From Thermococcus cleftensis (GTDB lineage Archaea > Methanobacteriota_B > Thermococci > Thermococcales > Thermococcaceae), in the NCBI RefSeq assembly GCF_000265525.1, contig NC_018015.1:1462322-1526321 (forward strand): a stretch of DNA of 64,000 nucleotides, written 5' to 3'. Under the pieces are notes generated by a model. It did not search any database and was not told the DNA's origin. It worked only from the letters and a program-made list of their open reading frames with translations. A program made the translations under genes and the position numbers. Below are positions 1,780 through 8,974 of the stretch, one piece after another (position 1 is the first letter of the stretch; each line of letters begins with the position of its first letter).

Positions 1780-2937
1780 ATGATGGGTAAGAAAGTGGTG
1801 GCGGTCCTGTTCGGACTGCTGATGTTGGCGATGCCGTTCACGATCAGCAGCGTCAGTGCTGAGACGAGCGTGACAGTCATACTCGTGAGCGACAACGCGG
1901 CCGATAAGGCCATTGCGGAGTACCTCGCCAACGAGACGGGGGCTGTGGTTGTCACGACGACGTGGGGAACTTACGACCCGAACGTTACGGCTGAGATCAT
2001 GAGCTACGCCCCGGACGAGGTCATCATAATCGGCGGTCCTGAGGCCGTCGTGGAGGAGTACGTCAGTGACCTTCAGGAGCTGGGGATAACCGTTGAACGC
2101 TGGGGCGGCCAGAACAGGTACGAGACCAACATTATGGTGATGGAACAGGCCCAGGTCAGGTTCCAGCTCCAGTTCAACGGAAGCGTTGTCGTTGCCGGCA
2201 ACGACACCCTCGCCATTCGGAACGCCCTTAGGATAGCCGTTCAGAACGGTGCCATGATAACCTACGTGAACGCCAGCACCAACGTGACCCGCCTGATGGA
2301 GAGACTCCAGGTCAGGAACGTGACTTTGATTTCCACCAACGCCTCCGAGACCGTGATGGAACAGGTCAAGAACCAGCTCCGCGCCTGCAACTGCACCTCC
2401 AAAGAGGTCAGGGCCAACGTCACCAGGGAGGACGTTCTTATGCTAATGGAGCAGGTGAGGGAGAGGCTGATGGAGATTGAGGCGATAGCGAACGTCACCA
2501 ACTCCACGGGGCTGATGGAGCAGGTTCGTCTGATGGAGCGGCTTATGGAGACCGCTAACCAGAGTATCCAGGAGGGACGGTACGAAGAAGCCTATGGAAC
2601 CTTGGTTAAGCTCCAGGCTCAGACGGAATTTGCCCTCAAGATGGCAAACGGTGAGATGAGGGTCGCCATGAAAACCAACCAGAGGCTCGCGCTTGAGGTG
2701 GAGATGGAGAAGCTGGAGGCCCAGATAAGGGTGATGGAAAAGGCCGGCATAGACGTGAGCGCCATAAACGCCCTGATGGAGCAGCTCAAGGAGGCCATAA
2801 AGAACGGTCAGTACGATGAAGCCAAGGAGATGATGAACCAGATAAAGACTATGCTGCGCGAGGCCTACACCAGCGGCCGAGACGCGATAAGGGCAAACGT
2901 GCCGGGCTCACGCGGGCCTGGAAAGTTCGGCCCTTGA
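1780..2937 (+). CDS. Secreted CWB2-like surface protein with helical C-terminal half
   Basis: 385 residues. A Sec signal peptide (about 1-27, ending SSVSA) precedes a domain resembling cell-wall-binding repeat 2: a Rossmann-like strand (TVILVSDN), VIIIGGPEAV and the signature RWGGQNRYETN near residue 110, followed by a second partial module. From about residue 125 it is mostly amphipathic helix, with the short unit LMEQ/LMER recurring about seven times, several N-x-S/T sites and a Gly/Pro-rich tail. The start follows GAGGTGAAGAGCT. A full-length paralogue lies at 59998-61203. Family CWB2 domains anchor bacterial proteins to wall polymers; in wall-less Thermococcales an S-layer or glycan-associated role is inference. 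Confidence 0.75.
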   Translation: MMGKKVVAVLFGLLMLAMPFTISSVSAETSVTVILVSDNAADKAIAEYLANETGAVVVTTTWGTYDPNVTAEIMSYAPDEVIIIGGPEAVVEEYVSDLQELGITVERWGGQNRYETNIMVMEQAQVRFQLQFNGSVVVAGNDTLAIRNALRIAVQNGAMITYVNASTNVTRLMERLQVRNVTLISTNASETVMEQVKNQLRACNCTSKEVRANVTREDVLMLMEQVRERLMEIEAIANVTNSTGLMEQVRLMERLMETANQSIQEGRYEEAYGTLVKLQAQTEFALKMANGEMRVAMKTNQRLALEVEMEKLEAQIRVMEKAGIDVSAINALMEQLKEAIKNGQYDEAKEMMNQIKTMLREAYTSGRDAIRANVPGSRGPGKFGP

Positions 2938-2995: not shown

Positions 2996-3358
2996 CTAAC
3001 GCCCCACCCCCTTTCTTTTCCCCTTCTTCTCCCGCAGGTACGGGTAGCGCATTATGTGACCGCAGTTGAGGCACTTGACCACCACGTGGGGGTACGGCCT
3101 GCTCCTGAGCCTGACGCGGGCGTTCTTTCCGGGAACGAGGAACGAGTGGCACCGCCTGCAGTACCGCCTCTTCCACTTCCTCGGCATTCTTATCCTTGCC
3201 TTCTGCTGAACTGCCAGTGCTATCTCGACGTATCTGTTGGCGAGTTCCGGCTCGTAGGGGAAGGCCCTCTCCGCCAGCGTGAAGAGCGTCTCGATTCTCT
3301 CCCGGGCTATTCTCCTCTTTTCCCTCTGCTCCCTCTTCCTGATGAACTTCTTTCCCAT
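2996..3358 (-). CDS. rnp4: Ribonuclease P protein component 4 (Rpp21)
   Basis: A 120-residue basic protein of the RNase P complex that removes the 5' leader of pre-tRNA. It has the Rpr2/Rpp21 layout: two N-terminal helices rich in Arg/Lys, then a zinc ribbon made by CRRC (about 69-72) and CLNC (about 95-98). It follows the MCM-like gene on the same strand after a 4-bp gap, so the two are probably co-transcribed. The C-terminal tail is Lys/Arg-rich. Length and motifs agree with archaeal Rnp4. Confidence 0.95.
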   Translation of the reverse strand: MGKKFIRKREQREKRRIARERIETLFTLAERAFPYEPELANRYVEIALAVQQKARIRMPRKWKRRYCRRCHSFLVPGKNARVRLRSRPYPHVVVKCLNCGHIMRYPYLREKKGKRKGVGR

Positions 3359-3362
3359 TCTA

Positions 3363-4883
3363 TCACCGCACCAGCTTGAGCTTTCCGGGGAACGGCTCGT
3401 AAAGGTATCCGGTTTTTATGAACCTCTCCAGCAGTTCAAGGGCGTCCGTCCTGCTGAACCCGCGGCTCACGAGGGTCCGAACGACCTCCTCCGCGGTCAT
3501 CTCGCCCTCAGTGCTCGTGGCCGCGATGTCGTATATAAGCATGAGCGCCCTCTGTGCCCTGACGTCCCGGGGAACGTACCTCTCGTACTCCCGCTCGAGG
3601 GATATTAGGATTTCGGGGTTCTCCTTGATGACGACGGCCCAGTCGTTTATTATGGCCTCGCTTATTCCCACCACTTCCCTGACCACTCGCCTCCCGGGCT
3701 TCCCCCGGAACCTGCTCACCGCTCCGAAGAGCCTCGCATCGAGAACGTAGCGGGTTCTGTTGTTGAGGAAACTCGATGGCACGCTCAGGACCTCGAACTC
3801 CCTCCCGTACTCCCTCCTTCCCCACTCCCTGAGTTCAATGTACCTCTCCCTGAACTCCCGCATCACCTCGCCCCCAAGGGAAGTAACCTTTGCCCTGTGG
3901 AGGAACACGGTGACCAGGAGGTTGGGGAGGAGCTGGCGGAACTCTCTACTCTCCTCGAAGTAAGGCTTCTCCTCCCACGGCACCAGGACGAAGGGTGTCT
4001 CTGATATCCTTGCCAGCGCGTCCCGAGGGTTCGGCTCGCGGTTCTCGGGAATTAATCCTACCGACCTCTTGCCCGTCAGGAAGGGTTCCACCCACTTGGG
4101 CAGGGCTGAGAGGGCCTTCTTGGTGAGGGGCGTGTAGTACTTCACGTCGCTCCCGTTCGGGTTGCCCAGTCTAAAATCGATTCCCAGGAGTGGATCCTCG
4201 GTCTCGATGACCCTCTTCCTGCTCAGCCTCACTTCCCAGGGCAGGCCCTTGTAGAAGTACTTCAGGGCCTTCCACAGGGCCAGGAGGCCCGTTCCTTCCC
4301 CGTACCGGTAGACCGTGTACCCGAAGCCCTCCCCCCAGCTCCGCGTCTCCGGTAGGGGGGTGTAGGGCACGCCGAAGAGGGAGTAGATGAGGGCTTTCCT
4401 CATGTCATCGCGCAGGTAAACGGTGTTCTCAAACAGCTCCCCCACCTCGCGCCCGCTGAGAGCGAACTCGCTGTAGTCCCTCCAGTAGTCCGAGTAGTCC
4501 CTTCCCTCTATTTCCTTTGCGTGCACCATTCTGAGATTGCCCCAGGGATAGGCGTCGGTGATACCCCTGACCAAGACGTGGCTTCCCGGCCTGACCTCGC
4601 CCTTCATCTCGGTCATCTCAGTGGCTCTGATTACCAGGTACGTCCTGAACTCGCTCTTCCCGAGCGACGCGAGCTCCGAGGGCGGAATGGGTGAGAGGAG
4701 ATAGTAGGCACCGTCGAGCGGGGCGCCTGGCGGTTTCCTCCCGATTAGAAATCCTGCTACCTCAACCTCATCGCCGTTTTTCAAACTCTGTATCCTCTTT
4801 TGAAACTCTCTTAGCCTTTTCCCCGGACTGAGCGGTTCTCTCGCTCTCTCCAGCCCCAACAGTTCCAGTATTTCCCCCTCCAT
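3363..4883 (-). CDS. Degenerate MCM helicase-like protein (no functional P-loop)
   Basis: 506 residues with the order of an archaeal MCM. An OB-fold-like region (about 35-125, GDEVEVAGFLIGR and GSHVLVRGI) is followed by the segment before the AAA+ core (ALSGREVGELFEN...DDMRKALIYSLFGVPYTPLP, 141-178). Next comes a relic of Walker A, YGEGTGLLAL at 194-203, where GxxGxGKS would be expected; the Lys is missing. The lid is recognisable at 325-415 (LHRAKVTSLGGEVMREFRERY, PSSFLNNRTRYVLDA), and the last 50 residues read as a winged helix (GFSRTDALELLERFIKTGYLYEP). I see no Walker B or arginine finger, so ATPase activity is unlikely. This assignment is by eye and needs profile confirmation. It is the first gene of an operon with rnp4. 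Confidence 0.6.
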   Translation of the reverse strand: MEGEILELLGLERAREPLSPGKRLREFQKRIQSLKNGDEVEVAGFLIGRKPPGAPLDGAYYLLSPIPPSELASLGKSEFRTYLVIRATEMTEMKGEVRPGSHVLVRGITDAYPWGNLRMVHAKEIEGRDYSDYWRDYSEFALSGREVGELFENTVYLRDDMRKALIYSLFGVPYTPLPETRSWGEGFGYTVYRYGEGTGLLALWKALKYFYKGLPWEVRLSRKRVIETEDPLLGIDFRLGNPNGSDVKYYTPLTKKALSALPKWVEPFLTGKRSVGLIPENREPNPRDALARISETPFVLVPWEEKPYFEESREFRQLLPNLLVTVFLHRAKVTSLGGEVMREFRERYIELREWGRREYGREFEVLSVPSSFLNNRTRYVLDARLFGAVSRFRGKPGRRVVREVVGISEAIINDWAVVIKENPEILISLEREYERYVPRDVRAQRALMLIYDIAATSTEGEMTAEEVVRTLVSRGFSRTDALELLERFIKTGYLYEPFPGKLKLVR

Positions 4884-4936: not shown

Positions 4937-5062
4937 GGTACGGCGGTCATAGCGGCGGGGTCACACCCGGTCTCGTTTCGACCCCGGAAGTTAAGCCCGC
5001 CAGCGATCCCGGGTGTACTGCCCTCCGAGAGGGGGCGGGAAACCGGGGACGCCGCCGGCCAC
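4937..5062 (+). rRNA. rrf: 5S ribosomal RNA
   Basis: The stretch matches the archaeal 5S rRNA as I know it from Pyrococcus/Thermococcus. The 5' arm GGTACGGCGGTCATAGCGG pairs with the 3' arm CCGCCGGCC to close helix I. Loop A/B carries TCACACCCGGTCTC, the conserved GGAAGTTAAGC is present near 4987-4997, and the GGTGTACTGCCCTCCGAGAGGG hairpin arm follows. It is a lone 5S gene without 16S, 23S or tRNAs nearby, normal for Thermococcales. The ends are predicted to within a few bases. Confidence 0.93.
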
Positions 5063-5825: not shown

Positions 5826-6455
5826 GTGGTAAGGCTCATAGCTTTTGACCTTGAGGGAACTCTCGTCAAGTCAATCTCGGGCTGGGTGGAGCTTCATAAG
5901 AGGTTCGGCACGTGGGAGAAGGGGAAGGAGTACGCGGAGCTTTTCTTCTCCGGAAAGATTGACTACGCGGAGTGGGCCGAGCTCGACGCGTCCCTCTGGA
6001 GGGGGCACACCAAGGAGGAGATAATGGAGTGGGTTCGCTCGGTCGAGTACATGGAAGGCGCGGGGGAGCTCATAGACTTCCTCCGGAGGAACGACTTCAG
6101 AATAGCCATTCTGAGCAGCGGCCTCTTGTGCCTCGCGAGAAAAGTGGGGGAAGAACTAGGCGTCGATTACGTCTTCGCCAACGAGCTGATATTCGACGAG
6201 AACGGCTCCATAACCGGGAAGGTGAATCCGATCGTGGACTTCAGGAGCAAGGGTGCCATACTGAGGGGCCTGAAGGAGGAGCTTAAACCGGAACTGACGG
6301 TGGCGGTTGGAGACGGCTACAACGACCTCAGCATGTTCCGCGAGGCGGACGTGGCAATAGCCATAAACCCGCACGAGGGCGTTGAGGGCGACCACGTCGT
6401 CGAGAGCCTCCACGAGGTCAGGGAGATAATCGAGGGCTTAATAGGGGGTCAGTGA
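5826..6455 (+). CDS. HAD-family phosphatase, SerB-like
   Basis: 209 residues, GTG start after a GGTGGT ribosome site. HAD motifs in order: motif I DLEGTL (nucleophile D8; the usual second Asp is Glu10), motif II LSSG (about 97-100), motif III Lys in DFRSKGAI, motif IV VGDGYNDLSMF (about 160-170). The closest named relatives are phosphoserine phosphatases, with a helical cap after motif I, but the Asp-to-Glu change means substrate and activity should not be assumed. Its 3' end overlaps a candidate C/D box sRNA on the other strand. Confidence 0.8.
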   Translation: MVRLIAFDLEGTLVKSISGWVELHKRFGTWEKGKEYAELFFSGKIDYAEWAELDASLWRGHTKEEIMEWVRSVEYMEGAGELIDFLRRNDFRIAILSSGLLCLARKVGEELGVDYVFANELIFDENGSITGKVNPIVDFRSKGAILRGLKEELKPELTVAVGDGYNDLSMFREADVAIAINPHEGVEGDHVVESLHEVREIIEGLIGGQ

Positions 6456-6502
6456 AGGGCGTGCTCCTCACCACTCGGCAAAGCAAAAGCTCATCATTCC
6501 CC
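6443..6502 (-). ncRNA. Candidate C/D box guide sRNA
   Basis: On the minus strand the order is AGGGGA, C box ATGATGA (6497-6491), 12 nt, D'-like CCGA, C'-like GTGGTGA, a guide stretch, D box CTGA (6451-6448), CCCCCT. The flanking AGGGG and CCCCT can pair to close the K-turn, and the C-to-D length of 50 nt is typical for archaeal sRNAs. C and D are consensus; D' and C' each deviate. It lies at the end of the HAD gene and in the gap to 6597. No target was identified. The rest of 6456-6596 shows only GC-rich inverted-repeat DNA. Confidence 0.5.
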
Positions 6503-6596
6503 TGTCGGCCCGGCCGGAACCCCCGGTTCACGATTCCCCAGGGAGGGCGGGCGCCGGGCCGTGCCCTAATCCGGTTTGGTGATTAAAAACTTACCC

Positions 6597-8069: not shown

Positions 8070-8408
8070 ATGAGGATTTATCACCTGAAAGTCCGCGACG
8101 AGTACCTCGACTTCATAAAGTCCGGGGAGAAGAGGATAGAGGTTCGCGTAGCCTACCCCCAGCTCAGGAAAATTCAGCCCGGCGACAAGCTCATATTCAA
8201 CGACTCGATTCCTGCCGTTGTAACTGAAGTTAAACGCTACGAGACCTTCCGTCAGGTGCTGAGGGAGGAGCCGATAAAGAAAATCTTTCCTGATGAACCT
8301 AGCTTCGAGAGGGCCGTAAAGCGGTTCCACAACCTCTACCCCAAGTGGAAGGAGAACCGCTACGGCGTCATCGTCATAAAGTTCAAGCTCCTCGGTGAGG
8401 GAAGATGA
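8070..8408 (+). CDS. ASCH domain protein
   Basis: 112 residues with the ASCH/PUA-like fold pattern: [26 protein letters not shown] (about 5-30), then [11 protein letters not shown] and a C-terminal strand [13 protein letters not shown] domains bind RNA or nucleotides and are linked to RNA processing or translation control; no specific role can be assigned. Its TGA overlaps the ATG of the next ASCH gene (ATGA), so the two are translationally coupled. A TATA-like CCTTTTAAGC lies about 35 bp upstream. Confidence 0.8.
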
Positions 8409-8974
8409 AGCACCTCGAGTTCGACGGGAGGTATAGGGAAGCGATACTGAAGGGTAAAAAGAGGGCGACGGTGAGGCTCGGCAGGAGGCCGAACCTGAAG
8501 GAGGGCGACACTGTCCTGATACACTCCGGCGGCTACGCGATAGGGAAGGCCGTAATCGAGAGGGTCGAGAGCAAGACGGTGAAGGAGCTGACCGATGAAG
8601 ACGCCTTCCTCGACGGCTTCTCGAGCAGGGAGGAGTTAATCAACGCTCTGAGGGAGCACTACAGGTGGGTGAACGACGACTCGAAGGCCCACGTCATAGT
8701 CTTCCGCCTCGTTGAGCGCTTTGATAAACCGGTTATGAGCTCCGACTACGCCTATGAGGGGAACCTGCCGGTCGAGATAGCGGAGAAGGCCCTAAAGCAC
8801 CTCAACCTTTCCGAGGAGGACAGGAGGCTAATCGAACTATTCCTCAAGACTGGCAGTCTCAGAAAAGCGGCCTACAGACTCGGCGGTCTTAACAAGAGAC
8901 ACCTCATAAGGGAGGCCCTGAGGCGGGCCTACGAGGAGCTGAAAAGGAAAGGCATCATGGGGCCGAGGCTTTGA
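8405..8974 (+). CDS. ASCH domain protein with helical C-terminal extension
   Basis: 189 residues: an N-terminal ASCH domain (about 1-105: [34 protein letters not shown]) followed by about 80 helical residues with a helix-turn-helix look ([28 protein letters not shown]). Pairing an RNA-binding-type fold with a small helical domain suggests a nucleic-acid-binding regulator, which is inference. It starts inside the stop of the preceding ASCH gene, and its 3' end overlaps the convergent gene at 8955 by 20 bp. Confidence 0.75.

Follow-up and report, generated by a model that had tools for sequence, protein, structure and literature searches.

A conserved MCM relative without recognisable ATPase motifs, encoded next to 5S rRNA and RNase P genes in Thermococcaceae

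Most Thermococcaceae genomes keep a second, apparently motor-dead copy of the MCM helicase, usually located between a 5S rRNA gene and an RNase P gene. The gene, here called pseudo-MCM, is an intact open reading frame on the reverse strand at positions 3363-4883 of the window, i.e., the whole stretch of 64,000 nucleotides which was analysed. It is found at the coordinates originally given, starts with ATG and codes for 506 aa. The source genome is a single contig of 1,950,313 bases. In the open-licence PMC literature we found no earlier description of the family; with respect to these papers, pseudo-MCM is an archaeal pseudoenzyme without prior description.

Detection and distribution

Used as a single query the window protein has no believable match in Pfam, NCBIfam or among PDB sequences. 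Ordinary annotation would therefore label it hypothetical. YajC (0.26) and angiogenin (0.11) came up in these searches as chance matches. The proposed likeness to MCM does not surface at this level, as plain Pfam or PDB searches with one sequence returned no MCM. Since all that they produced was chance matches, such searches were not counted as evidence against an MCM origin.

A genome scan with the window protein alone likewise yielded nothing; an alignment as query did find matches. Orthologues are present in 35 of 61 related genomes, and the 28 orthologues aligned with the window protein are 38-63% identical. When 115 genomes of the phylum were searched with the family profile, pseudo-MCM turned up in about 79 of the 94 from Thermococcaceae (counted from the table of matches) and in none outside this family. 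The scan was given no information about MCM. After the orthologues, the best matches in many genomes were the winged helices of true MCMs, with E-values down to 3.5e-6. Another protein, encoded by open frames of about 270 aa in four genomes (G085, G027, G015 and G009), has a stretch that is matched weakly by the profile in its winged-helix section (about 450-501).

Descent from the MCM helicase

Profile comparison leads to MCM. Against an alignment of 18 archaeal MCMs pseudo-MCM has an hhalign score of 68.6; 100 column-shuffled controls reached 28.2 at most (mean 17.9) and the reversed MCM alignment reached 22.0. Columns 76-508 of the pseudo-MCM profile pair with MCM 179-683. The winged helix alone scores 69.4, the shuffled maximum being 19.6. 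With the winged helix removed, residues 1-435 score 43.3 versus a shuffled maximum of 27.8; this signal stems from the strands of the OB barrel, from the pre-AAA helix and from the region of the P-loop. Taken by themselves, residues 210-440 give no profile signal to MCM in hhalign.

Structure prediction points in the same direction. An AlphaFold2 model of the whole protein, built with 17 sequences, has a pLDDT of 87.1 and a pTM of 0.84. It was searched with Foldseek against 350,542 PDB chains, many other AAA+ proteins among them, and the best 50 matches are all MCM chains (top E-value 4.4e-11). The low TM-scores, 0.3-0.4, are expected for displaced domains and a longer target. When folded on their own, residues 136-438 gave a poorer model (pLDDT 68.3); its best 50 Foldseek matches are again all MCM (top E-value 1.4e-5). 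Taken together, model, hhalign and Foldseek display OB barrel, pre-AAA region, AAA+ domain, lid and winged helix collinear with those of the MCM helicase. The original prediction had read just this order, with YGEGTGLLAL as a P-loop remnant, and the AlphaFold2 model and hhalign confirm it.

Might an unrelated protein with an OB barrel and a winged helix merely resemble MCM by chance? The empty Pfam, NCBIfam and PDB searches would fit such a view, and so would residues 210-440, which possess no sequence signal of their own. It is hardly compatible with a segment that beats every shuffled control without its winged helix, or with a middle domain which, folded alone, has only MCM among its best 50 of all PDB chains searched. 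The condition set beforehand for refuting kinship with MCM, a match lacking in profile and structure searches or confined to an unrelated wHTH protein, did not arise. We consider a chance resemblance very improbable, and descent from the MCM replicative helicase nearly certain. As to a specific origin from a Thermococcales MCM, the winged-helix scores show no preference for the MCMs of Thermococcaceae over those of sister lineages.

What was kept and what was lost

The coordinates of the protein regions and of neighbouring features are collected in Table 1.

Table 1. Features of the pseudo-MCM locus and its surroundings (positions in the window)
Feature	Position	Strand	Remarks
Secreted-looking protein, weak CWB2 domain, long charged helical tail	1780-2937	+	found next to Rpp21 in some relatives only
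Rpp21 (RNase P protein component 4)	2996-3358	-	PF04032, E-value 2.6e-20
C-terminal winged helix, residues 441-506, ending YLYEPFPGKLKLVR	3366-3563	-	closest of all parts to true MCM
Degenerate MCM AAA+ domain with lid, residues 136-438	3570-4478	-	only MCM among its best 50 PDB matches when folded alone
Position of the MCM arginine finger (SRFDL), here SETPFV	3990-4007	-	E295 invariant in the family
P-loop position, residues 193-203	4275-4307	-	no Walker A Lys here or in 43 orthologues
Pre-AAA motif, residues 153-171, with VYLRDDMRKALIYSLFG	4371-4427	-	matches SIYG..DVKKAIALQLFGG region of MCM
OB-fold barrel, residues ~38-128	4500-4772	-	from the model; PF01336 in 6 of 29 orthologues
Palindromic TATA box TTTATAAA	4907-4914		23 nt to the pseudo-MCM ATG, 24 nt to the 5S start
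5S rRNA gene, divergent	4939-5060	+	starts 55 bp from pseudo-MCM
C/D box RNA snoR9	6436-6561	-	Rfam RF00065, 125 bits; end of a HAD phosphatase gene
Two tandem ASCH-domain genes	8070-8974	+	ends overlapping

The N-terminal A domain is reduced. In the model only about 36 residues precede the OB barrel, compared with about 100 in a full MCM. The pre-AAA helix bearing DDMRKALIYSLFGV is H159-168, and the YGEGTGLLAL stretch at the P-loop position comes after strand 188-193. The distance from the P-loop to the arginine-finger site is about 96 residues versus 133 in MCM.

The catalytic residues fared worse. Walker A (GDPG.AKS) is gone in 44 of 44 orthologues examined. Walker B (DEFDK) is absent from the window protein. 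No SRF arginine finger was found in the 44 sequences, save that a single orthologue (locus L100) matched a pattern which combines Walker B and arginine finger. The predicted absence of Walker A Lys, Walker B and arginine finger holds for the window protein and, with respect to Walker A, for all 44 sequences; L100 is the exception regarding the combined pattern. At the finger site the family carries S/A-E-T/x-P with an invariant Glu. None of the 44 sequences, which have 0-2 cysteines each, contains a C4 zinc finger; the window protein has none and hence no zinc finger. As read from these motifs, pseudo-MCM cannot be a helicase.

True MCMs, when compared between lineages, are best conserved in the AAA+ domain (51-62% identical), and the winged helix is among the worst conserved parts (24-36%). 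Judged by the profiles this situation is reversed in pseudo-MCM, i.e., the winged helix is the part which they still recognise; PF21120 is found in 4 of 29 orthologues. Its retention as the recognisable part points to a partner surface which has been kept.

Relatives with and without a motor

The source genome has one clear true MCM gene (G000:C1:593035-598305; loci L001-L003 and L005). It is a single open frame of about 2026 aa in which the MCM matches are split into four pieces, and the insertions that break it look like several inteins. The expectation of several MCMs in Thermococcales is correct for T. kodakarensis, which has three (PMC3307487, PMC3984812), but not for the source genome. 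In common with the MCM helicase (PF00493, PF21120; TK1620/MCM3 in T. kodakarensis) pseudo-MCM has the domain order, the pre-AAA motif, the MCM-specific AAA+ fold and a YEP..G winged helix. Unlike the helicase it is devoid of Walker A, arginine finger and zinc finger, Walker B was not found, the N-terminal A domain is short and the AAA+ core is shorter. The non-essential MCM1 and MCM2 of T. kodakarensis and the plasmid or viral MCMs are likewise extra MCM relatives in Thermococcales. These are recognisable as MCM, whereas pseudo-MCM is a conserved pseudoenzyme of the chromosome whose neighbours are fixed.

The closest likeness in kind is eukaryotic. MCMBP (MCM-BP, ETG1) is described in PMC9018068 as MCM-derived, without Walker A and kept beside active MCM; Fig. 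3 of the same source shows it with Walker B and arginine-finger positions. MCMBP is regulatory and not catalytic, and an MCM-like domain without Walker A is common to both proteins. Orthology was not borne out: MCM_bind (PF09739) does not match at the pseudo-MCM locus in eight genomes, its single weak match being located beside the winged helix of a true MCM. MCMBP and pseudo-MCM are probably independent inventions. Inactivated archaeal RecJ/Cdc45-like proteins (PMC3307487) have taken the same route, a replication enzyme being kept after loss of its active site, yet differ in fold and family.

Genomic context and a common TATA box

Rpp21 begins 4 nt past the pseudo-MCM stop codon on the same strand, in agreement with the predicted operon, and it is located downstream of pseudo-MCM in 32 of 36 fetched loci. 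On the other side, 39 of 44 loci have a 5S rRNA gene immediately upstream, mostly in divergent orientation. That both share a promoter had been proposed, and the sequences bear this out: one palindromic TATA box is common to 5S rRNA and pseudo-MCM in 30 of 44 loci. Its spacing is near-constant: it lies 21-22 nt from a motif by which the start of 5S was marked and, in about 30 of 44 loci, 20-24 nt from the ATG; one of these has TTTATAAG as its TATA box. The geometry of TATA box and ATG predicts a leaderless pseudo-MCM mRNA. The TTTATAAA box joining both genes makes a neat archaeal promoter that works in two directions and whose geometry is conserved. Archaeal TATA boxes are expected to have an A-rich element upstream; judged by eye, this element fits the 5S direction better. 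In six loci pseudo-MCM is further away, and there a second TATA-like box belongs to it alone. In one locus (L014, genome G012) the 5S rRNA gene is apparently cut at its 5' end, the shared promoter is missing and the pseudo-MCM start is fused directly to the 5S gene; either the deletion is genuine or the assembly is in error here.

In one genus group (g11, genomes G061 and G062) Rpp21 is elsewhere and pseudo-MCM is near DUF357/DUF555 genes, an assignment which in G061 is based on sequence similarity; in G062 a tRNA-guanine transglycosylase gene is directly upstream. In another group (g12), labelled Pyrococcus-like by inference, only two of nine genomes have pseudo-MCM. One of these (L100) has the order RtcB, pseudo-MCM, Rpp21. 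In five Pyrococcus-like genomes (L131-L135) RtcB is followed directly by Rpp21 and pseudo-MCM is cleanly absent. RtcB and Rpp21 thus persist after its clean loss from between them; the gene can be dispensed with, and neither RtcB nor Rpp21 requires it. The RtcB of L133 has 937 aa and carries an intein (PF14890, LAGLIDADG).

In the sister family (L126-L130) a true MCM gene adjoins Rpp21 or is near it, convergently, in all five genomes examined, with a GINS-like gene (PF05916 in L126) ahead of it. We considered this as an ancestral locus; against it, the orientation is convergent, and the surroundings of Rpp21 retrieved for two other archaeal phyla (30 and 19 loci) showed no adjacency of true MCM and Rpp21. 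The proximity may be a coincidence.

Possible functions

Tentatively, we propose that pseudo-MCM regulates or chaperones MCM or its loaders, a role to which we attach a little less than an even chance. We infer a non-catalytic partner whose winged helix, still with an MCM-type YEP..G wing, and AAA/lid surface would bind the MCM ring or winged-helix partners, Orc1/Cdc6 and MCM itself being in view. Such binding would serve to chaperone, cap or unload the helicase, much like MCMBP in eukaryotes. The promoter common with 5S rRNA would tie its expression to growth. MCM descent, lost catalysis, purifying selection, retention of the winged helix and the shared TATA box all argue for this role. Against it, Rpp21, RtcB, 5S rRNA and, in one genome, the transglycosylase are RNA or RNA-processing genes and not replication genes, and PF09739 has no match. 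Further, most Pyrococcus-like genomes keep MCM without pseudo-MCM, which therefore does not belong to the core replication factors. In the portion of PMC3820547 that deals with the P. abyssi MCM pull-down, XPD is reported and no such partner is named; P. abyssi may well lack the gene.

The main rival draws on the same neighbours. A former MCM might now bind RNA with its OB barrel and winged helix, together with RNase P or RtcB, or in the assembly of 5S rRNA and ribosomes. Rpp21 directly downstream in most loci, RtcB upstream in L100, the adjacent 5S rRNA gene with its common TATA box and the transglycosylase of G062, where Rpp21 is elsewhere, are consistent with this. RtcB and Rpp21 are nevertheless side by side without pseudo-MCM in the five Pyrococcus-like genomes. 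Two general points are also adverse: archaeal RNase P reconstitutes from Pop5, Rpp21, Rpp29, Rpp30 and L7Ae, and archaeal operons often combine replication and translation genes. Although encoded in an operon with one subunit of RNase P, pseudo-MCM, unlike these subunits, is missing in genomes that keep Rpp21, and no relation to them in sequence or fold was found. We regard a role in RNA processing as somewhat unlikely. Rather unlikely, too, is the wider proposition that a motor-stripped helicase fold was recruited to RNA metabolism (RNase P, RtcB, 5S rRNA) or, via the shared bidirectional promoter, to a circuit that couples ribosome production and replication.

A competitive inhibitor or decoy is doubtful. 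Here, a dead subunit would enter or cap MCM rings and poison them, e.g., to limit initiation or to block plasmid or virus MCMs. A protein that keeps the AAA+ and lid fold while lacking an ATP site and an arginine finger would suit this purpose. Against it, the N-terminal A domain is reduced and the zinc finger is lost, both of which serve in contacts within rings and double rings, and about 36 residues are missing between P-loop and arginine-finger position. We know of no MCM poison of this kind. A point in its favour is that mobile elements have introduced MCMs into archaeal genomes (Krupovic et al., 2010, cited by PMC3307487 and PMC4158269).

Finally, the fast divergence (pseudo-MCM is about 61% identical where Rpp21 keeps about 86% in the same genome pairs) and the loss from several genomes could suggest a decaying pseudogene without function, a reading which is refuted for practical purposes by open frames (no stop codons in the orthologue matches of the profile scan), dN/dS values of 0.06-0.17 in close orthologue pairs, about 0.1 in many, and about 50 invariant positions over 29 sequences. 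A dN/dS of about 0.1 means that the protein is maintained, and purifying selection indicates that it does something without ATP hydrolysis.

Implications

Pseudo-MCMs are known from eukaryotes in the form of MCMBP, and assembly and removal of the MCM ring are an active question there. If pseudo-MCM is a partner of the helicase, as we tentatively favour, T. kodakarensis, which is genetically tractable and has a single essential MCM, would offer a minimal test of a dead MCM controlling a live one. If it works in RNA processing instead, the fold of a replicative helicase would have taken up a new trade, which is unusual.
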